From an uncultured bacterium (GTDB lineage: Bacteria > JAAXHH01), in assembly GCA_913051705.1 (NCBI GenBank), contig CAJXCW010000020.1, forward strand, positions 1-35,675: a DNA stretch of 35,675 nucleotides. The letters are read 5' to 3'. Below, piece after piece: positions 913-33,210 of the stretch. The translations under genes were made by a program, and so were the position numbers. The notes below the pieces were generated by a model. That model had not been told where the DNA came from. It did no database searches and saw only the letters and a list, made by a program, of their open reading frames with translations. Positions within the stretch are counted from its first letter, which is position 1, and the number at the start of each line of letters is the position of its first letter.

Positions 913-3183
913 ATGAATGATTCGATGACGTACGAAGAAAAGATGCCGGATGAGCTGGCGGAGAAGTGCCGGGCGTCGTTGCGGGATGGAGAGAAAATCC
1001 ATATTACGGCCGCGACCGATCTGTCGGAGGACCTGCGTTTCGAAGAGCGCTGGCTGGTGGTGACGGACCAGCGGCTTTTGCGGCTTAACCCGGACAGCAC
1101 GAACGGGATATCTTCGCTCGATCTGAAAGATATCAAAAGTGCGTCGGTTGAAGAACTCGTGGGCGCCGGTCGATTGAATGTGGAAATGGGAAATGAGCAG
1201 GTCGAATTCATGCAATATACGCCGTCACAACGCAAAAAGTTTGCGCAGATCGCCCGGAGTATTGATCAGCTTATTAAAGAAAAGCCCATGGAGTTTGGCG
1301 ATAAAATCGACAAGACAAAATGCGAAACATGCGGTCGGCTTTTGCCGGAGGTCAATGGCGTATGTGCCTTGTGCACGGATCGACTTGCGATGCTTAAGCG
1401 TATTATGGGGTACATGAAGCCATTCAAGAGGAAAGCTATCTGGATGGTGGCCATTTCGCTCCTCTTTACGGTAGCCGAGTTGGGCCCGCCGTTTATCATG
1501 AAACATATTCTTGATGATGTACTCGGCATTGAGAGCCAGGTCGCAGCCGGGGACAAGTTGCCCCTTCTCTACTGGCTGGTAGGCGCATTCGCCGCGATCC
1601 GACTGCTTTCCTATGTCCTCGAGATTTTCAGAGGCCGGTTGTCCATCTGGCTGGGCGGCCAGGTTACCGTGGCGATACGCGATGACCTGTATAACAATCT
1701 GGTTCACCTGGGGCTCAAATTTTACAATAAACGGCAAGTCGGTTCGCTCATATCGCGGGTGACCAACGATGCGGAAAGTATGATGGATTTCCTGGTCGAC
1801 GGTGTGCCGTATATGCTGAGCAACGCGTTGTTGCTGATCGGAATTCTGATCCTGCTATTCATTACAAGCTGGGAATTGACGCTGCTTGTGTTGATTCCTG
1901 TCCCCTTGATGATTATGGGAGGCTGGTTCTTCTGGGGCCGGTTGATGCGGGCTTTTCGTACCAAATACCACCGATGGAGCAAACTGGTCGGTCTGGCCAG
2001 TGAGATGCTGGCCTCCGTCCGCGTAATGAAAGCCTTCGCTCAGGAAAAAAGGGAGATGCGGCGTTTCGACAAGAACAACGAGGGCGTATTCCGGGGAGAC
2101 TATGGAAGTGAAAAAGAGACATTTATCTTTTTCGGCACGCTCAGTATGCTGACATCCACCGGTCTGATTCTGGTCTGGTATTTCGGGGGAATGGACATCA
2201 TTGAAGGCACATTTACGCTGGGTTCGCTCATGATGTTCATCAGCTACCTGTGGATGCTGTATGAACCGTTGCAGTGGTTCGGTGAGTTGAATACCTGGTC
2301 GAGCCGGGCGATGAGCGGCGCGGAGAAAATCTTCGAAATAATCGACACACCGATAGAGACCGATGACCAGGAGAACCCGGTGGCTATGCCGAATATAAAA
2401 GGGGAAGTGGTCTTCAAAGATGCCTTCTTCGCCTATGAGCCGGGCAAGCCTGTACTTAAGGACATCAATCTGGAGGTCGCATCAGGCGAGATGATCGGTC
2501 TGGTCGGCAAGTCCGGCGCCGGAAAGAGTACGCTGATTAACCTGCTCTGCCGGTTTTATGATATTGACGAAGGCGCGTTGACCATTGACGGGGTGAACAT
2601 TAAGGACATCAGCCTCGAAAATCTCCGCAGTCAGATTGGTATGGTCTTGCAGGAGTCGTTTTTCTTCAGCGGTACGATTGCGGAGAATATCCGATACGGC
2701 CGCCCAATGGCGCCGCTGAAGGAAATCATAGCCGCCGCCCGTGCAGCCAACGCACACGACTTTATCTGTGCCAAACCGGACGGCTACGATACGCAGGTCG
2801 GTGAAAACGGTCGCGAGCTGTCCGGCGGTGAACGACAGCGTATCGCTATCGCACGGGCCATCATTCACAATCCACGTATCCTGATTCTCGATGAAGCGAC
2901 CTCATCGGTGGACACGCACACGGAGAAGTTGATTCAGGAGGCCATCGCCAACCTGATCAAGGGCCGCACGACGTTTGCGATTGCACATCGTCTGTCGACC
3001 CTCCGCCGTGCGGACCGGCTGGTCGTGCTGGACGAAGGTAAAATAGCCGAAGTCGGTTCCCATGCCGAGCTGATGAAAAAGAAAGGCCACTTCTACCGGA
3101 TGGTCGAAACGCAGCGTGCTACGACGGCCATTCTGGGCGTTGGGGGTGGGAAAGATGATCCGAATAAGGAGAAAAAGAGCTGA
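913..3183 (+). CDS. ABC exporter with N-terminal PH-like domain and zinc ribbon
   Basis: This is a fused membrane-ATPase half-transporter of about 756 residues. Residues 1-120 are soluble and resemble a bacterial PH-like domain (RWLVVTDQRLLRL). They are followed by a CxxC-10-CxxC zinc ribbon (Cys137, 140, 151, 154). A type-1 exporter membrane domain with about six helices spans roughly 165-470. The nucleotide-binding domain has Walker A GKSGAGKST (from 532), Q-loop VLQE, signature LSGGERQR (from 636), Walker B ILILDEATSSVD and H-loop AIAHRLST. I chose ATG 913 because the longer reading frame from 862 only translates octamer repeat DNA. The neighbours are a partial ABC ATPase upstream and a DUF1854 gene downstream. 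That trio matches the ABC-ABC-DUF1854 arrangement seen near cyanophycin genes in other bacteria. No cyanophycin gene is present here, so the cargo is unknown. Confidence 0.9.
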   Translation: MNDSMTYEEKMPDELAEKCRASLRDGEKIHITAATDLSEDLRFEERWLVVTDQRLLRLNPDSTNGISSLDLKDIKSASVEELVGAGRLNVEMGNEQVEFMQYTPSQRKKFAQIARSIDQLIKEKPMEFGDKIDKTKCETCGRLLPEVNGVCALCTDRLAMLKRIMGYMKPFKRKAIWMVAISLLFTVAELGPPFIMKHILDDVLGIESQVAAGDKLPLLYWLVGAFAAIRLLSYVLEIFRGRLSIWLGGQVTVAIRDDLYNNLVHLGLKFYNKRQVGSLISRVTNDAESMMDFLVDGVPYMLSNALLLIGILILLFITSWELTLLVLIPVPLMIMGGWFFWGRLMRAFRTKYHRWSKLVGLASEMLASVRVMKAFAQEKREMRRFDKNNEGVFRGDYGSEKETFIFFGTLSMLTSTGLILVWYFGGMDIIEGTFTLGSLMMFISYLWMLYEPLQWFGELNTWSSRAMSGAEKIFEIIDTPIETDDQENPVAMPNIKGEVVFKDAFFAYEPGKPVLKDINLEVASGEMIGLVGKSGAGKSTLINLLCRFYDIDEGALTIDGVNIKDISLENLRSQIGMVLQESFFFSGTIAENIRYGRPMAPLKEIIAAARAANAHDFICAKPDGYDTQVGENGRELSGGERQRIAIARAIIHNPRILILDEATSSVDTHTEKLIQEAIANLIKGRTTFAIAHRLSTLRRADRLVVLDEGKIAEVGSHAELMKKKGHFYRMVETQRATTAILGVGGGKDDPNKEKKS

Positions 3184-3241
3184 ACCACGAAGAACACGGA
3201 AGTTTAAAGATAAAAGAAATTCCCGTGCTCTACGTGGTTCA
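3181..3241. repeat. Inverted repeat between ABC and DUF1854 genes
   Basis: The arm at 3181-3200 starts TGAACCACG and pairs with 3221-3241, ending CGTGGTTCA, with about two mismatches and a one-base bulge. The loop is AT-rich (about 20 nt). The stop codon of the ABC gene is the first three bases of the left arm. The ACCACGAAGAACACG phrase resembles a heptamer-type intergenic repeat known from other bacterial groups. It could act as an mRNA stabiliser or attenuator inside the operon. Confidence 0.8.
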
Positions 3242-3258
3242 GGATCCCGAGGTGATTT

Positions 3259-6889: not shown

Positions 6890-6917
6890 CATTCACCATT
6901 CACCAATCACCAATCAT
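6890..6917. repeat. Heptamer array abutting the sulfatase start codon
   Basis: Four heptamers run in register: CATTCAC twice (6890-6903), CAATCAC (6904-6910) and CAATCAT (6911-6917). One base later comes ATG 6919 of the sulfatase. The array occupies the place of a Shine-Dalgarno sequence and contains no purine-rich site. Confidence 0.85.
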
Positions 6918-6918
6918 C

Positions 6919-8367
6919 ATGTCCAAACCCAATATCCTTTTCCTGATGGCTGATCAAATGCAGGGGCGGGTCTTCGAGCCCGGCCATCCCTGTCTGACGC
7001 CGAATTTCGACTGGCTGATGGCCCGAGGCGTCCGGTTTACGCGGGCGTATACGCCGAATGCCGTCTGTTCACCGGCGCGGGCGAGTCTGATGACCGGCCT
7101 GTTGCCCCATAATCACGGCGTGTTAACCGTCACACACACGGTGGCGGCAGACCAGAGCCGGCTGCGTACGCACCATCCACACTGGGCCCAGCGGCTTGAT
7201 GCAGCCGGCTATCGCACCGGTTATTTCGGTAAGTGGCATGTAGAAGAGCATCAGCCGCTCAGCGATTTCGGCTGGCAGGTCAGCGGCGAGATGGGGCATG
7301 GTAAGCTGAAAAGTGCGCTGCTCGAGCAGAAAGCCCGGGCACTACGAGGCGACCGGCCGTACGAGCCAGACTATTCATTATCCTTCCGACTTGATGGTGG
7401 CATGGGCTACCCGGCCAGTGTATTCTACGGCGTGACTGAGCTGCCGCCGGAGCAACGCAACATGGGCATCGTCACGGCCCTGTCCCTTGATTTCCTGGAT
7501 GAAGCCCTGCAACAGGACGGACCATGGTGCTGTTTTGTCAGCGTGCAGGAGCCGCACGATCCATTTATAGCAGGGCAGGAAGCCTTTGATCAATATGATG
7601 TAGAGGCCATGCCGTTATCAGAAAATGTACACGACGATCTGACCGGCCGCCCCGGCATCTATCGCAAGTCGGCTCGCGTCTGGGCGCAGATGACCGATCA
7701 TCAGCGGCGCGAAGCCGCTGCCTGCTACTATGCCTCCATCACGGAAATCGACCACCAGTTCGGGCGAATACTGGATCGGGTCGAACAGGCCGGTCAGATG
7801 GATAATACCCTTGTGGTGCTCACCTCGGATCATGGGGAACTGCTCGGCGCCCACGGCATGTACTGCAAGAACTTCTCTGCTTATGAGGAAATCTACAATA
7901 TTCCGCTGATCATGACCGGCCCCGGCATGGCGGAGGGCGTAACGACTTCAGCGCGTGTCGGCTCGCATGATCTGTGCCCGACCCTGCTGGACCTGGCCGG
8001 CTGCGCGACCATTGAGAACGAGGATTCCCGGTCGTTCGCCCCGGTTCTGCAAGATCCACAGACGCATGAAACAGCGTATACGACCGGCTATGCGGAATAC
8101 TTCGGCGGCCGTATGATCCTCACGCAACGGATCGTCTGGGATGGACCGTGGAAGTTCGTGTTCAACGGCTTCGATTTTGATGAGATGTATAATCTGGAGG
8201 ACGATCCAGGGGAGATGAACAACCTGGCAGAGCAGGCCGACTATACTGATCAACTACGCGCCATGACGGCATTGATGTGGCAAAAAATAGAAGCCACCGG
8301 CGATCACAGCCTGGCAAGATCGAATTACCCGCCGCTGCGCGTGGCGCCGTATGGACCAGGCAGGTGA
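6919..8367 (+). CDS. Sulfatase family hydrolase (formylglycine type)
   Basis: This 482-residue protein carries the type I sulfatase signature CSPARASLMTG, with Cys50 as the residue converted to formylglycine and Pro52 and Arg54 conserved. PNILFLMADQ near the N-terminus supplies the metal-binding Asp12, and TSDHGELLGAHG in the C-terminal half supplies the further Asp and His metal ligands. No signal peptide is visible, so it appears cytoplasmic unless the start is misplaced. It would hydrolyse a sulfate ester, and the substrate is unknown (carbohydrate and choline-type sulfates are both possible). Maturation needs a formylglycine-generating enzyme, and the only FGE-fold protein in the window lacks the required cysteines. 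The start has no Shine-Dalgarno because a heptamer repeat abuts it. The TGA stop lies inside another repeat array. Confidence 0.92.
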   Translation: MSKPNILFLMADQMQGRVFEPGHPCLTPNFDWLMARGVRFTRAYTPNAVCSPARASLMTGLLPHNHGVLTVTHTVAADQSRLRTHHPHWAQRLDAAGYRTGYFGKWHVEEHQPLSDFGWQVSGEMGHGKLKSALLEQKARALRGDRPYEPDYSLSFRLDGGMGYPASVFYGVTELPPEQRNMGIVTALSLDFLDEALQQDGPWCCFVSVQEPHDPFIAGQEAFDQYDVEAMPLSENVHDDLTGRPGIYRKSARVWAQMTDHQRREAAACYYASITEIDHQFGRILDRVEQAGQMDNTLVVLTSDHGELLGAHGMYCKNFSAYEEIYNIPLIMTGPGMAEGVTTSARVGSHDLCPTLLDLAGCATIENEDSRSFAPVLQDPQTHETAYTTGYAEYFGGRMILTQRIVWDGPWKFVFNGFDFDEMYNLEDDPGEMNNLAEQADYTDQLRAMTALMWQKIEATGDHSLARSNYPPLRVAPYGPGR

Positions 8368-8473
8368 ATTATGATTTTTGAATTATGAATTATGGTCAGT
8401 GATGGGGACGTCAATAGGCGTAAACCCTTTGCTTCTCAATCATAATTCAAAAATCATAACTCATAATTCACCT
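8366..8473. repeat. Inverted heptamer arrays between convergent genes
   Basis: The left array is GAATTAT-GATTTTT-GAATTAT-GAATTAT (8366-8393). The right array is CATAATT-CAAAAAT-CATAACT-CATAATT (8441-8468), its approximate reverse complement. About 47 bases of non-repeat spacer lie between. Both convergent genes end in AGG-TGA followed by ATTATG, so the repeat edge supplies both stop codons. Transcripts from either side would fold into a long AU-rich hairpin, consistent with a bidirectional termination or 3'-end-protecting role. Confidence 0.85.
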
Positions 8474-9919
8474 TATCTTCCTCGCCTCACGCGTCTGGCC
8501 GTTTTTCAGGAAGAGCAGATGGGTGATATTGCCGGCGGCGTCCTTCACGAAGGTGATCTGGGCATTTTCCTGTTGAAGGAAGAAATCTCTATTTGATTCC
8601 GGAAACAACTCGCTTCTCATCTGGCCCGGTGGCTGTCCGTACAGCTTGCCATCGGTGGTCATGATGTCTACGGTAAGGCCGGGTGAGAATTCGTACGTGC
8701 CGGTGTAGGCTTGAAACGTCTGCGGGTCCGCGGTTGAAGTAAGTTTAGGGGGGGACGCCAGCGGATAGCCGGGGGTTAAGATATGAAAGCCGATATCGTC
8801 GATAGGAACCGAAGAATTAGACAGCACGATCACGCCTCTTCGGGATAATTTATTGAAGCCGACAAAGCTGTAAAAACCGCGTGTACGACCACTGAGCCAG
8901 TGGGTATACCGGTCTCTTGCCCCTTTTCGCGCTCTCCAGCCCAAGGCTGTTTCCACACCCGGTCTGCCGGCAGCGTATCGCGGTCGGATCACCTCTTCAA
9001 ACGCCGCCTGAAATTTGATGGAATCCTCTTCGGTGTATTCCGGCATGACGTAGATGATGCCCATATTGGCGGATATAAATGCCATCATATCCAGGATATT
9101 CGAGCGGACGCCGTTACCGCCCACCAGTGTGGTGTCCGACCAGGCGGTGATCGGACGCCTGGTTCGATCATGTCCCGTTGCCATCAGGGTTTTCATGGAG
9201 ATGGTCGGCGTACTCCCGGTGTTCGCTAATTTGAGCGGGGTGCTGATATATTCCTGGATCAGCGCGTCATACGATTTGCCTGCCTGCCACGCCAGCACAT
9301 GCCCCAATAAACCCATCCCGACCTCCGAATATTCATAGGTGGTCCCGACATCATAGGTCAGCGGGTAGGTTGAAAGAAATTGATAGAGCAGATCAACGGA
9401 GTAGCCGTCCAGTGGATTATTCAGGTCGGCAGAGATCACATTGTTCGGCAGGCTCGGTAACCCTGAGGTGTGTGTGGCCAGATGCTCCAGGCGGATCGGC
9501 TGGCCGTTATATTCGGGTATCTTTACCGAGTCCGGCAGAAATTTCGACACCGGATCACTCAAACTCACTTCCCCGTCTTTAACCATGAGGCCCAACAAGG
9601 CCGAGGTATACAGCGAACTTAACGGACCGATCTCGAAGACCGTCATCCCGCTGGTCTTGCGTATCGTCGCCCGGTTAAGCGTCCCCCGGGCGTAGACCGT
9701 TCGGCGCGTCCCCCGGATCTCCCCCACGACGATCCCCACCGTCTGCCGGTACGCATCCACACGCTGACGTAGGATCGTTACGATGGGATCCTCGACCGGT
9801 TCTGCCGATTCGTCTTTATCTTTTTCCTGCTGGGTCTGCGCCGACAGACTCAGAGTGCCTGTAACCAGGATACCCAGACCAAGGAAAATACCGATGAGAT
9901 ATCGATAGACAGGCAACAT
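8468..9919 (-). CDS. Exported beta-lactamase-fold protein, probable pseudoenzyme
   Basis: The 483-residue protein starts with a signal peptide (MLPVYRYLIGIFLGLGILV to LSAQ). It follows the class C beta-lactamase/PBP4-like fold (Pfam beta-lactamase type) and has a C-terminal lipocalin-like domain (from about 405, YTGTYEFSPG). The fold landmarks are clear: FEIG near 95, DGEVSLSDPVSKFLPD, HLATHTSGLPSL. The catalytic residues are not. The usual SxxK after FEIG reads PLSS (99-102), YxN reads YSE (197-199), and the third HxG/KxG box reads LSG. The reading frame is intact, so this looks like a conserved non-hydrolytic relative (ligand binding or envelope role) and not decay. The neighbours give no clear hint. 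Confidence 0.85.
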   Translation of the reverse strand: MLPVYRYLIGIFLGLGILVTGTLSLSAQTQQEKDKDESAEPVEDPIVTILRQRVDAYRQTVGIVVGEIRGTRRTVYARGTLNRATIRKTSGMTVFEIGPLSSLYTSALLGLMVKDGEVSLSDPVSKFLPDSVKIPEYNGQPIRLEHLATHTSGLPSLPNNVISADLNNPLDGYSVDLLYQFLSTYPLTYDVGTTYEYSEVGMGLLGHVLAWQAGKSYDALIQEYISTPLKLANTGSTPTISMKTLMATGHDRTRRPITAWSDTTLVGGNGVRSNILDMMAFISANMGIIYVMPEYTEEDSIKFQAAFEEVIRPRYAAGRPGVETALGWRARKGARDRYTHWLSGRTRGFYSFVGFNKLSRRGVIVLSNSSVPIDDIGFHILTPGYPLASPPKLTSTADPQTFQAYTGTYEFSPGLTVDIMTTDGKLYGQPPGQMRSELFPESNRDFFLQQENAQITFVKDAAGNITHLLFLKNGQTREARKIR

Positions 9920-10934: not shown

Positions 10935-10970
10935 AAATTGCGGTATTTTTCCTCTCCGCTGCCCACTTGC

Positions 10971-11753
10971 CTACTTGCCCACCTGCACCACCTCATTCAC
11001 CACATCCATCCGCACCGACTTCGAATAATGGTACACGCTAAGCCCTTCACCGACCGGCGTTGGGACGCGTATGATAAATTCAACCCAGCGTGAAGTGTTG
11101 AAGCCGACGAAGGCCAGCTCGAAGCCGGCCATCAGATCTTCCGTATCCCGATTTAAATCCGGCAGCAGCACCGGTCCCGTGTCAGGCTGATACACCCAAT
11201 CCCTCTCGTTGGCGTTTATGGTCTTGATCGGGTATTCAAGTATCGCGGTGTATCGGTCGTTCTCGATGGTCGTCCGGGCGTTCAGAATCTGGTTAGCGAG
11301 CACGGCCTCGACAATAGCCTGCGGCGTCTTCAGCACCTGACCGGCCACTCGGGGCAGATCCACTTTCAGGCTGTCAAAGGACTCCTCTATGCTGCTGATC
11401 TGCCGCTCAGGCTGCTCTCCGAGCGATGGCGGATAGAGCGTGGCGCTTTTGTTCGCCAGGTCGTACGTCTTGATGGCCATAAATGTATCCGACGAGCAAA
11501 TCGGTTTAAAGTCTGCATTCGGCATGTGCCAGATGTTTTTTTCTACCCCCACTTGCTCCGTCTTACAACTAACCCCAAGGACATATTCTTCAGAGAAGTC
11601 GGTCCCTCTTTCTGAAATCGTCAGATACGCGTCCAACGGAATACGGGCGTTATTGAGCGAATACGGCGGCTTCTGCGTCACCGTCCTCGGCGTCTTTTTC
11701 AACGTATCAATACGAAAGGTCAAAAACGAATGTGGGAAATCGATGGCTTGCAT
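10971..11753 (-). CDS. Hypothetical protein, family not recognised
   Basis: This 260-residue protein has no signal peptide, membrane segment or motif I recognise. It appears beta-rich, with alternating hydrophobic stretches such as YTAILEYPIK and VEFIIRVPTP. The central region carries two Cys residues spaced apart (GVSCKTE, KPICSSD). AGGAG lies 6-7 bases upstream of ATG 11753, so it looks translated. It stands alone, convergent with the small lipoprotein and divergent from the glycosidase. No function is proposed. Confidence 0.6.
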   Translation of the reverse strand: MQAIDFPHSFLTFRIDTLKKTPRTVTQKPPYSLNNARIPLDAYLTISERGTDFSEEYVLGVSCKTEQVGVEKNIWHMPNADFKPICSSDTFMAIKTYDLANKSATLYPPSLGEQPERQISSIEESFDSLKVDLPRVAGQVLKTPQAIVEAVLANQILNARTTIENDRYTAILEYPIKTINANERDWVYQPDTGPVLLPDLNRDTEDLMAGFELAFVGFNTSRWVEFIIRVPTPVGEGLSVYHYSKSVRMDVVNEVVQVGK

Positions 11754-11918: not shown

Positions 11919-13781
11919 ATGCACACCGACCTACTCAGAACCTACCGCCCTTTTCTCGACTCCCGTCCCTACACCCGCTGGTGGTGGTTTAATGATGCGA
12001 TACAGAAAGAAGACATCAAGACGCAGCTCACCTGGGTGTGTGATCAGCACTTCGGCGGGGTTGAGATCGCCTGGATGTATCCGCAGCCAGGGGCGGAAGA
12101 AGGGCCGAGGTGGCTGAGTGCGGGCTGGAGCGATCTGGTCGCTTATACTAAGCAGGAAGCGGATCGGCTGGGCATCGGGTGTGATTTTACGTTCGGTACT
12201 CAATGGCCGTTCGGCGGGCGCATCGTGCCGCAGGAGGATGCGTCTCAGGTCTTCAGTGGCCTGTCGTCGCAGCGGTTGGAGAAATCATGGGAGCTGCACT
12301 ATTCCGGCGAAGAATATGTCCTGAACCACCTGGACCACAGGGCGCTGGAGCGGTATGCCGGTCATATCGGCGAGGCGTTGACCGCCGCGATGCAGGGCGC
12401 CACGTCCGGATTGTTTTCCGACTCGTGGGAGGTGTTTCCGGAAAATCTGTGGAGCGCCCAACTGGACCCGGTGTTCCGGGAACGGTTCGGCTACGACCTG
12501 GAGCCGTATAAAGCGCAGATTGATGAGCATCCGCAGGTGCGCTATGACTACCGCAAGTTGTTATCGGACGCCGTCCTCGAAGGGTTCTTCAAACCATATA
12601 CCGAAATTTGTCATCAACTGGGCGGGGTAAGTCGCGTTCAGTGCCACGGGGCGCCGACGGACTTACTGGCGGCTTTCGCGATGGTTGATGTCCCGGAATC
12701 CGAAGCCCTGCTCTTTGAGACGTTCTTCTCCGCCATCCCCGGATCGGCGGCCGCCTTGGCCGATCTGCCGGTGGTGACGTGCGAGACCTTCACCTGTCTC
12801 TACGGATACGAACCCTGGCCGGCGAATTCTCCGCACCACGGTAGGGAAAAAATCGAAGATATGAAACTCCTGGCCGATGCCGTGTTCGCCCACGGCGTCA
12901 ACCATATCATCTGGCACGGTATGCCGTACAATAAGCCAGGCGGCAGTAATACCTTCTACGCCACGACCCACGTCGGTCCCGGTAGCGGGTTCATCCACGA
13001 ACTGCCCGCCTTCAATCGATATCTGGAATCGGTCAGCCGGTTTCTTAAACCGGGCAAGACCTATTCGGATGTAGCGGTCTATTTGCCATTGGAAGACATT
13101 TGGATGCGGCACAGATTGCCGGAGGAGCGTCAGGGGCCGGCCTCCACCTATTACTGGGAACTACAAACGGTCGATCTACCTGCGTCCCTGGAAGGCTACC
13201 ATCCTTTATGGATTTCGACCCCATTTTTAAAAGAGGCCACTGTAGAAAACGGTCTGATAAGATATGGTGAAACAACCTTTTCCATGTTATATATGGATGT
13301 AGAATGGCTGGACCATGAGGCATTGGAGGCGCTAATCCAACTGGCCTTGAAAGGGGCAACCATCTGTATCGCCCGCCGCTCCAAAGTACCGGGGCATCAG
13401 CCGCCGTCAGATTACGACGACCGTCTCACGCAACTGATGAATTACCCAACGGTGACGTCCGACCTGAACGCGGCGCTTCGTCACCCGCCCCTGGTCGGTG
13501 GAGAAGACCTCCCCGAATACTGGTGCCGGGAAGTTGACGGCGCGTATCATATTTTCTTCGCCCATCCCGATACCAAACGTATCAGATATCCTATGGCTTA
13601 CGAGGGCTGGCGGTCAACAGGTACCCTGGAACGGCATGTGACGATCGACATCAAAGACCGAGAGTACGACCTCCACCTTACTTTCGAACCGGAAGACGCC
13701 CTATTCGTTAAAGTAACATCTATGGGAGAAGTTGATATCGCCTCCGCCCGTATCGGTAAGGATGAAAAGACGAAAGGATGA
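11919..13781 (+). CDS. GH106-like glycoside hydrolase (alpha-L-rhamnosidase type)
   Basis: The 620-residue protein opens with the family's tryptophan-rich segment (YTRWWWFNDAIQKEDI) followed by FGGVEIAWMYP, which matches the start of the GH106 catalytic barrel. Other catalytic-domain landmarks are GLFSDSWEVFPENLW and the HGVNHIIWHGMPY/GPGSGF region. GH106 enzymes remove terminal L-rhamnose from glycans. This one is shorter than typical members (usually over 900 residues), lacks most C-terminal beta-sandwich modules and has no visible signal peptide, so it may act on imported oligosaccharides. The last residues (KDEKTKG) are encoded by heptamer repeat DNA, which also supplies the stop. Two amidohydrolases and a PHP enzyme follow on the same strand. 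The family assignment is moderately sure, the substrate is not. Confidence 0.75.
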   Translation: MHTDLLRTYRPFLDSRPYTRWWWFNDAIQKEDIKTQLTWVCDQHFGGVEIAWMYPQPGAEEGPRWLSAGWSDLVAYTKQEADRLGIGCDFTFGTQWPFGGRIVPQEDASQVFSGLSSQRLEKSWELHYSGEEYVLNHLDHRALERYAGHIGEALTAAMQGATSGLFSDSWEVFPENLWSAQLDPVFRERFGYDLEPYKAQIDEHPQVRYDYRKLLSDAVLEGFFKPYTEICHQLGGVSRVQCHGAPTDLLAAFAMVDVPESEALLFETFFSAIPGSAAALADLPVVTCETFTCLYGYEPWPANSPHHGREKIEDMKLLADAVFAHGVNHIIWHGMPYNKPGGSNTFYATTHVGPGSGFIHELPAFNRYLESVSRFLKPGKTYSDVAVYLPLEDIWMRHRLPEERQGPASTYYWELQTVDLPASLEGYHPLWISTPFLKEATVENGLIRYGETTFSMLYMDVEWLDHEALEALIQLALKGATICIARRSKVPGHQPPSDYDDRLTQLMNYPTVTSDLNAALRHPPLVGGEDLPEYWCREVDGAYHIFFAHPDTKRIRYPMAYEGWRSTGTLERHVTIDIKDREYDLHLTFEPEDALFVKVTSMGEVDIASARIGKDEKTKG

Positions 13782-13866
13782 AAGGACGAGATGAAAGGAC
13801 GAAAGGATGCTTTATCTTGCGCTCTTCCTTTCGATTTTTGAACCGCTCTTCCTTTCGCCTTTCCAG
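13757..13866. repeat. Inverted GAAAGGA heptamer arrays
   Basis: From about 13760 to 13808 the sequence repeats GAAAGGA-type heptamers. From about 13826 to 13866 the complementary TCTTCCTTTCG motif occurs twice, followed by CCTTTCC. The left array overlaps the 3' end of the glycosidase gene and contains its TGA. The right array ends just before the Shine-Dalgarno of the next gene. A large hairpin in the operon mRNA is expected. Confidence 0.8.
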
Positions 13867-14734: not shown

Positions 14735-14795
14735 AGATGGCATCTGGATAATTCCAGATTGATTTTAAATCAACAAAAAGCAAAGCGAGCGAAGC

Positions 14796-14831
14796 GGAGC
14801 GCGTTCTAATAATGCCTCGAAGAGGCGCTCC
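14796..14831. repeat. Nested hairpin upstream of the PHP gene
   Basis: GGAGCGC (14796-14802) pairs with GCGCTCC (14825-14831). Inside lies GCCTC-GAA-GAGGC (14814-14826), which overlaps the outer right arm by two bases. The surrounding DNA (GCGAGCGAAGCGGAGCGCG) is G+C-rich and repetitive compared with its flanks. It looks like a REP-type palindromic element in the gap between the amidohydrolase and PHP genes. Confidence 0.6.
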
Positions 14832-14895
14832 TTACTTTCGATGACGCGTAGCGGCATCCATCAACAAATGGCATACCCCTCTGAAAGGAAGTCCA

Positions 14896-32332: not shown

Positions 32333-32408
32333 TCCCGTATCATGTTCTGAGTTCCTAGTTCCGAGCATGATACGGGATTGAATACTAGGAACTCAGAACT
32401 CAGAATTA
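32333..32408. promoter_or_regulatory. Interleaved inverted repeats upstream of the SDR gene
   Basis: Two perfect inverted repeats alternate. TCCCGTATCATG (32333-32344) pairs with CATGATACGGGA (32366-32377). TTCTGAGTTCCTAGT (32345-32359) pairs with ACTAGGAACTCAGAA (32384-32398). The order A-B-A'-B' means the stems cannot both form as simple hairpins. They would be alternatives or an H-type pseudoknot. The B arms are built from GAGTTCC-type heptamers. It ends 16 bases before the Shine-Dalgarno of the SDR gene, in the 5' leader, where such switching could affect expression. Confidence 0.7.
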
Positions 32409-32424: not shown

Positions 32425-33210
32425 ATGTTCGATTTTAAAGCGCTTTTCGACCTATCCGACCGGACAGCTCTTGTCGTAGGCAGCGGAAGTGGTATCGGCC
32501 GGTCTTCGGCGATGGGGCTGGCGCAATTCGGCGCTCATGTCATTTGTGCTGATGTAGATGCAGAAGCTGCAAAAGCAAGTGCTTCAGAGATCACCCAAAC
32601 CGATGGGTCCGCAGAGTCGATTCACCTGGATATGTGCGATCCGCAAAGTATCCTGAGTGGCCTGGACCATATCGGTCGGGTTCATATCCTCGTCAGTACC
32701 CCCGGCATCAACGTAAGAAAACCGATTCTCGATATTACAGATGAAGAATTCGACCGGGTGATCAATCTGAATCTAAAAGGGACATTCCGGCTGGTTCGTG
32801 AGGTGTCCCGGAATATGGTTGCAAACGGCGGTGGGAGTGTCATTGTCTTCTCAAGTATCCGATCCCAGGTCGTCGAACCGGGGCAGGGCGTGTATGCAGC
32901 CACTAAGTCCGGTGTGGTCCTAATGATCCGCGCTCTTGCCGTTGAGTTAGCAGATAAGGGGGTTCGTGCTAATGCAATCGCACCGGGAGTGGTGGACACT
33001 CCGCTGACCCAGCAGATAAAAAGCAATGAAGACTGGTATAATGCCTATGCGGATAAAAGCATGTTGAAACGCTGGGCAAAACCTGAAGAAATGGTGGGGG
33101 CCGTTGTTTATCTCGCATCCGACGCCAGCAGTTATACTACCGGATCCCTATTATTTGTCGATGGCGGCTGGACAGCGGCAGATGGTCGTTTTACACCGCC
33201 CGAGGGATAA
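32425..33210 (+). CDS. Short-chain dehydrogenase/reductase
   Basis: This 261-residue classical SDR has the nucleotide-binding glycine motif VGSGSGIGRS (19-25 core), the catalytic triad Ser144 (VFSSIRS), Tyr157 and Lys161 (YAATK) and Asn115 (NLNLKGT), plus the C-terminal YTTGSLLFVDGGW. The structural NNAG motif is replaced by STPG (91-94). CADVD after the second strand has an acidic residue in the position that usually favours NAD(H). It would oxidise or reduce an alcohol or carbonyl, and sugar dehydrogenases share this pattern. GGAGG precedes ATG. A GC-rich palindrome separates it from the GDPD gene. Confidence 0.9.
   Translation: MFDFKALFDLSDRTALVVGSGSGIGRSSAMGLAQFGAHVICADVDAEAAKASASEITQTDGSAESIHLDMCDPQSILSGLDHIGRVHILVSTPGINVRKPILDITDEEFDRVINLNLKGTFRLVREVSRNMVANGGGSVIVFSSIRSQVVEPGQGVYAATKSGVVLMIRALAVELADKGVRANAIAPGVVDTPLTQQIKSNEDWYNAYADKSMLKRWAKPEEMVGAVVYLASDASSYTTGSLLFVDGGWTAADGRFTPPEG

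Follow-up and report, generated by a model that had tools for sequence, protein, structure and literature searches.

Intergenic direct repeats of the heptamer TAACTGA have been described in Beggiatoaceae, Cyanobacteria and Bacteroidetes (MacGregor 2015, PMC4679880). In that report, 13 sets of these repeats overlap stop codons, stop triplets are present in all three frames, repeat-encoded residues lie mostly at the edges of proteins, and the phylogenetic distribution is scattered. The system is presented there as one motif arranged in direct repeats, with one indirect repeat, and most copies sit just upstream of starts. Palindromic repeats overlapping gene 3' ends are also on record, namely the mobile QMITE1/2 of Coxiella (PMC5896051) and the enterobacterial RU-1/ERIC and RU-2/YPAL (PMC2759123, PMC2229807), among which an RU-1 fusion with loss of the normal stop codon is described.

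Here we analysed a 35,675-nt stretch of DNA (the window) and a wider sample of its source genome. The repeats we found resemble the TAACTGA repeats in being intergenic heptamers that close all three frames (on at least one strand in 137 of 292 arrays) and overlap the ends of open reading frames (45 arrays cross a stop). Unlike that system as described, they comprise many 7- and 8-mers, often form inverted pairs, in some cases fill whole gaps, and supply both stops of convergent pairs. The unit TAACTGATAACTGA had no copy in the 1.63 Mb sampled and is absent from the 60 commonest units listed. With QMITE and RU our arrays share the capacity to form hairpins, the overlap or extension of gene 3' ends and, sometimes, the supply of the last residues; however, those are families whose whole-element sequence is defined (~100-200 bp, PMC2229807), whereas the unit here is an array of 7/8-mers in numerous motifs, and by eye the spacers are unlike one another. 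In contrast to the REP palindromes tagged with GTAG/CGTC (PMC3733652), the element at 8362-8473 starts with AGGTGA, ends with TCACCT and carries neither tag (this element only, by inspection). Heptamers overlapping stops are therefore already published for TAACTGA (PMC4679880), and the many-motif inverted arrays are a variant of that kind. Literature on such many-motif inverted arrays in this genome was absent from the top-ranked matches of a search that left most subscription journals outside its range.

The locus that drew attention to these repeats lies between two convergent genes and has the following features:

6919-8367, plus strand: sulfatase gene, 482 aa (PF00884 Sulfatase, PF16347 SGSH_C)
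8362-8394, plus strand: left quasi-palindrome arm, made of heptamers resembling (TGAATTA)n and holding the sulfatase stop
8365-8367, plus strand: sulfatase TGA stop, the triplet with which the left heptamer array opens
8395-8440, no strand: spacer (loop) between the arms, 46 nt
8441-8473, minus strand: right arm of the quasi-palindrome, inverted copy of the left arm, holding the stop of the beta-lactamase-fold gene
8468-8470, minus strand: beta-lactamase-fold TGA stop, the triplet with which the right heptamer array opens
8468-9919, minus strand: beta-lactamase-fold gene, 483 aa (PF00144, PF11954)

The 100 bp between the two stops are a quasi-palindrome built of heptamer arrays. TRF called period-7 arrays at 8365-8394 and 8440-8470, and the inverted repeat 8362-8394/8441-8473 spans 33 nt at 88% complementarity, with a 24-nt core pair at 96%. 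The sulfatase gene ends ...GGC AGG TGA ATTATG and the minus-strand beta-lactamase-fold gene ends ...ATA AGG TGA ATTATG, so that sequence and TRF together confirmed the claim of the initial annotation that both genes end AGG-TGA-ATTATG with the TGA at the array edge. Because the arms are inverted copies of each other, these matching ends are a single feature and not a double coincidence. As RNA, 8355-8480 folds at -43 kcal/mol on the plus strand (z -6.6 against dinucleotide shuffles), and the minus-strand hairpin has a z of -4.6. Chance origin of the repeat was ruled out by the 23-mer TGAATTATGATTTTTGAATTATG, which has 116 genome matches with at most 3 mismatches vs 0 for the reversed pattern. 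On the other side of the sulfatase gene, a CA-rich heptamer array (6890-6920) abuts the start codon at 6919.

Elsewhere in the window, three more genes take their stop from repeat DNA:

913-3183, plus strand: ABC transporter gene (PF00664, PF00005), its stop within an inverted repeat
3180-3242, no strand: 26-nt inverted repeat with an 11-nt loop, which takes up the greater part of the spacer behind the ABC gene and contains the ABC TGA stop at 3181-3183
10960-10991, minus strand: period-8 array (TGCCCACT) in which the minus-strand gene 10971-11753 has its TAG stop (10971-10973)
11919-13781, plus strand: glycosidase gene, 620 aa (PF17132 Glyco_hydro_106)
13758-13809, plus strand: array of period 8 (and 13 nt) that runs over the 3' end of the glycosidase gene, with the stop at 13779-13781 inside

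The ABC and glycosidase stops had both been attributed to repeat DNA, the latter together with its last residues, and both attributions held. The ABC stop is among the first bases of the inverted repeat 3180-3205/3217-3242 (26 nt, 85%), at which TRF called no 7/8-mer array. In the glycosidase gene, the final seven codons (AAG GAT GAA AAG ACG AAA GGA) are repeat DNA as well, and the protein extends 6 residues past the end of its relative in G007, a sampled genome of the same family. The gene at 10971-11753, missing from the initial annotation, is the fifth repeat-stopped gene of the window; its G007 relative is equal in length and its relative in G015, a sampled genome of the same order, is one residue shorter.

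The window holds further repeats. Quasi-palindromic array pairs fill two more gaps, one from a stop at 784 to the ATG at 913 (785-912) and one upstream of the gene at 32425 (32341-32405), and dispersed elements occur in or near repeat spacers at 817-860 and 14755-14850. The dispersed cores GCATCGTGTCC, AGCGAGCGAAGCG and CCTCGAAGAGGCG have 15, 14 and 9 copies in 1.63 Mb, of which 8, 9 and 6, respectively, are within 150 nt of an array. Of the two contig ends (1-92 and 35560-35675), one carries a 22-nt tandem repeat and the other GC-rich simple sequence.

To place the window, which is one complete contig, in its genome (5.45 Mb in 405 contigs), we sampled 80 further stretches, which with the window make 1,632,675 bp (30%). 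The 1285 genes in this sample were called with a simple codon model and no standard gene finder, and their starts are less certain than their stops. TRF yielded 292 merged period-7/8 arrays in 1.63 Mb, ~180 per Mb. In the first 0.836 Mb, the 73 period-7 and 86 period-8 rows compare with 0 and 1 in a Markov-2 control, and this difference (159 vs 1) rules out a chance origin of the arrays. The units are many and fall into several groups, among them AAATCACC, AATCACC, AATTATG, ACCTGCCC, AACTCGG and AAAGTAC. Row density is 190 per Mb in this genome vs 12.5 per Mb in G007 (400 kb sampled) and 0 in G015 (242 kb). Among the 143 genomes searched, the AATTATG pattern (at most 1 mismatch) was found in 5, the source genome included, and the AAATCACC pattern in the source genome only. 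This lineage is thus rich in arrays that are scarce (G007) or missing (G015) in the sampled relatives. A stop triplet occurs on at least one strand in 219 of the 292. Outside the lineage, an Anaerolineae sulfatase homologue (L095, after 6482) has a short-repeat-like stretch, GGACACGGATGACAAGGATG, ~50 nt past its stop; similar arrays may occur in other phyla.

Do these arrays merely lie near stops, or do they provide them? Arrays cover 47 of 1281 stops vs 15 of 1246 starts (p=5e-5). The covered stops comprise 29 TGA, 11 TAG and 7 TAA, a TGA share of 62%, as opposed to 36% (402/1111) at stops with no array within 60 nt (chi2 p=3.5e-4). At stops lying 3-12 nt before an array the share is normal (20/59, 34%). 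Both the excess and the TGA shift were stable over four TRF settings. Since the shift is confined to covered stops and accompanies an excess over starts, repeats do supply gene stop codons. As to the genome-wide test proposed in the initial annotation, stops in the sampled 30% thus fall within arrays more often than starts do, and ~150 repeat-stopped genes would be expected in the entire genome. Convergent pairs with both stops in inverted-repeat arms also recur, at L138:3519-3595, L148:5474-5546 and L116:17886-17943; these three come from 30 convergent hairpins, and the last is without a 7/8-mer array.

The placement of the arrays is mostly intergenic: 215 of the 292 are purely so, 45 lie across a stop, 15 across a start and 18 within genes (one counted twice). 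In gaps of 30-260 bp their rates are similar whatever the gene orientation (tandem 115/531, divergent 10/42, convergent 16/89). Nine of the 18 intragenic arrays are at most 60 nt from where the gene ends; of these, 8 lack a coding-strand stop triplet and encode the protein tail; the coding-strand triplet is also lacking in 6 of the remaining 9. Arrays with at least 2 stop triplets intrude into genes by no more than 27 nt, stop included (n=36), and stop-poor arrays that cross a stop at most 21 nt (n=9). The stop-poor arrays reach no deeper than the stop-bearing ones, so depth does not discriminate between them. Among 139 blocks in tandem gaps, 36 start within the stop codon or upstream of it and 46 start 3-12 nt after its first base. 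Together these 82 blocks exceed the 40-56 obtained by sliding blocks uniformly over the region behind the stop, and compare with 66-79 expected when intrusion into the gene by up to 24 nt is allowed. The excess next to stops therefore depends on the null. The same holds for the 36 stop-covered blocks, which are above the downstream-only nulls (15-24) and below those with up to 24 nt of coding entry (53-67). With uniform placement of single arrays in the first sample, 22 stops were covered vs 16.3 expected, and 5 starts vs 14.6. Stop coverage alone is thus weak evidence. On the coding strand, C-rich sequence prevails among the arrays closest to starts (53/71) and G-rich sequence among those closest to stops (59/81) in the first 0.836 Mb.

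The initial annotation had further proposed that repeats reset C-termini. We compared the C-terminal 110 residues of 24 repeat-stopped genes (23 with arrays plus the ABC gene) and of 24 random array-free genes with relatives in G015, G007 and G001, taking at most three relatives per gene at 50% identity over 60 aligned residues. Six test and 7 control genes had no relative passing this filter and were left out, leaving small sets of 18 and 17 genes with identities of 51-89%. The end of the best relative coincides for 5 of 18 test vs 10 of 17 control genes, and is shifted by at least 3 residues for 7 of 18 vs 2 of 17 (Fisher p=0.12; Mann-Whitney p=0.064). When any of the up to three relatives is allowed, the same end is found for 10 of 18 and 10 of 17 genes; when the relative must also have no 7/8-mer array within 40 nt of its own stop, for 9 of 18 and 10 of 17. 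Relatives excluded for an array of their own near the stop, at a laxer TRF score, numbered 2 of 36 in the test set and 0 of 28 in the control set. The relatives' ends moreover differ among themselves by at least 3 residues in 11 of 23 pairs for test genes vs 2 of 12 for controls, and the C-termini of repeat-stopped genes therefore vary anyway. Clear repeat-encoded tails relative to the relatives were seen in three cases: the glycosidase (+6), L124:18853 (+3 to +4) and L127:9087 (+12, resting on one relative at 52% identity). Individual tails thus support the proposal, but it was not shown to be a rule, since relatives with an unchanged end and no array near their stop were found for half of the test genes and about as often for controls, even though shifts of at least 3 residues affect 7 of the 18. 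From these alignments, a general resetting of C-termini by repeats is not established, and the commoner shifts in the test set (p=0.12) would be compatible with a modest effect.

At the convergent locus itself, no repeat was found in the gap of the syntenic G015 pair, whose sulfatase is longer than that of the window by 1 residue and whose beta-lactamase protein is longer by 7. The G007 beta-lactamase relative (L214:839-907) stops at the same residue (AGG TAG). It is not a clean counterexample, because its stop is covered by an 11-nt inverted arm (897-907) and followed, 33 nt further on, by a G-rich array; the arrangement seen in the window thus recurs there in weaker form, built on a different motif. 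Among 22 sulfatase loci, 21 homologues could be traced to the stop (L109, a partial match, was left out), and these have 2 to 18 residues after a conserved GP. The best named sulfatase relative is from a Candidatus Latescibacterota metagenome genome (L091, 71% identity), and a Planctomycetota homologue (L108, 45% identity) has two residues after the GP, as in the window. Given the longer G015 pair and the variable homologue ends, it may be that both convergent C-termini were trimmed, at ends that are variable in any case.

Several explanations other than tolerated repeats can be weighed against these data. If the hairpins were selected RNA 3'-end structures, acting as bidirectional terminators or as stabilisers of mRNA 3' ends, the stops would be a by-product. 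Inverted pairs scoring at least 12 are indeed concentrated in convergent gaps of 30-260 bp (30/89, vs 83/531 tandem and 2/42 divergent; convergent vs divergent p=1.6e-4) and occur in only 2 of 662 shuffled gaps; in the relatives they are present in 3 of 148 gaps (G007) and 5 of 84 (G015). The position of the stop codon near the stem base and the fold scores of both strands (z -6.6 and -4.6) also fit. However, this gap-type bias is carried by array-free gaps (22/73 convergent, 34/416 tandem, 0/32 divergent), whose hairpins are probably in part ordinary terminators, whereas array gaps have hairpins in 8 of 16 convergent, 49 of 115 tandem and 2 of 10 divergent cases (convergent vs divergent p=0.22), and divergent gaps are as rich in arrays as the other two types. 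A classical intrinsic terminator was rejected for the arrays: the 8 nt past the stem contain 5 or more T on 5 of 65 array hairpin sides vs 14 of 78 without arrays, the stem G+C of array hairpins is 42%, and there is no terminator-like site at 8200-8640. A known RNA family was likewise rejected, with 0 Rfam matches at the gathering score within the window. An RNA 3'-end role is possible for the arrays, but we regard selection for such a role as an improbable origin of the pattern.

Insertion at, or growth into, gene ends as a general process that resets C-termini would account for the three repeat-encoded tails, for the tail-encoding intragenic arrays near gene ends, for the longer repeat-free G015 pair and for the greater number of shifts in the test set. 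It is unlikely all the same, as array-free relatives share the end about as often in test as in control genes, the difference in shifts is not significant, and ends vary among the relatives too. Very unlikely is a mobile palindromic element, MITE- or REP-like, with preferential insertion at stop codons. The 116 dispersed near-identical copies of the 23-mer and the dispersed elements nested in or near spacers would be expected of such an element, and MITEs with short overlaps of gene 3' ends have been published (PMC5896051); yet several unlike motif groups share the architecture, and the spacers between the inverted-repeat arms differ by eye and in length.

Taken together, the probable explanation that we propose is that quasi-palindromic 7/8-mer arrays multiplied in a burst confined to this lineage and are tolerated where gene ends permit it. 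Period-7/8 arrays of many motifs, often as inverted pairs around a variable spacer, would mainly fill intergenic spacers. Neither 7 nor 8 is divisible by three, so that three units of an array containing TGA, TAG or TAA are enough to close every frame. Where an array borders or nibbles a gene end, its first in-frame triplet would become the stop, and inverted arms would make the two sides of a convergent gap alike, so that the facing genes share a TGA ending. Arrays would persist beside stops mainly because C-termini tolerant of change are coding edges open to invasion; protein ends would often stay unmoved, and a minority would be lengthened or trimmed by a few residues. The arrays may have expanded by replication slippage, and their placement probably reflects tolerance rather than benefit. 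The arms may have been matched by inverted copying or template switching. Template switching at quasipalindromes (PMC8604942, PMC7202029) would both create and maintain alike inverted arms. Here an arm's own partner is its best match in 25 of 45 loci only, with no significant difference from the best foreign arm (Wilcoxon p=0.27), which does not demonstrate homogenisation of arms within a locus. Complementarity outside the arms of the 30 convergent hairpins showed no excess in counts judged by eye. A related possibility is that the arrays act as general gene-end cassettes, combining a three-frame stop with a hairpin, renewing themselves, overwriting spacers and setting two facing ends in one event; we consider this quite doubtful.

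For the biology of this lineage, the results mean that repeats turn into coding signals in a measurable way, with stop-codon usage shifting only where an array covers the stop. If the cassette reading were true, a single repeat event could fix where two facing genes end. Should strains be found that differ in the presence of individual arrays, the rate at which repeats set or move C-termini would be directly testable.
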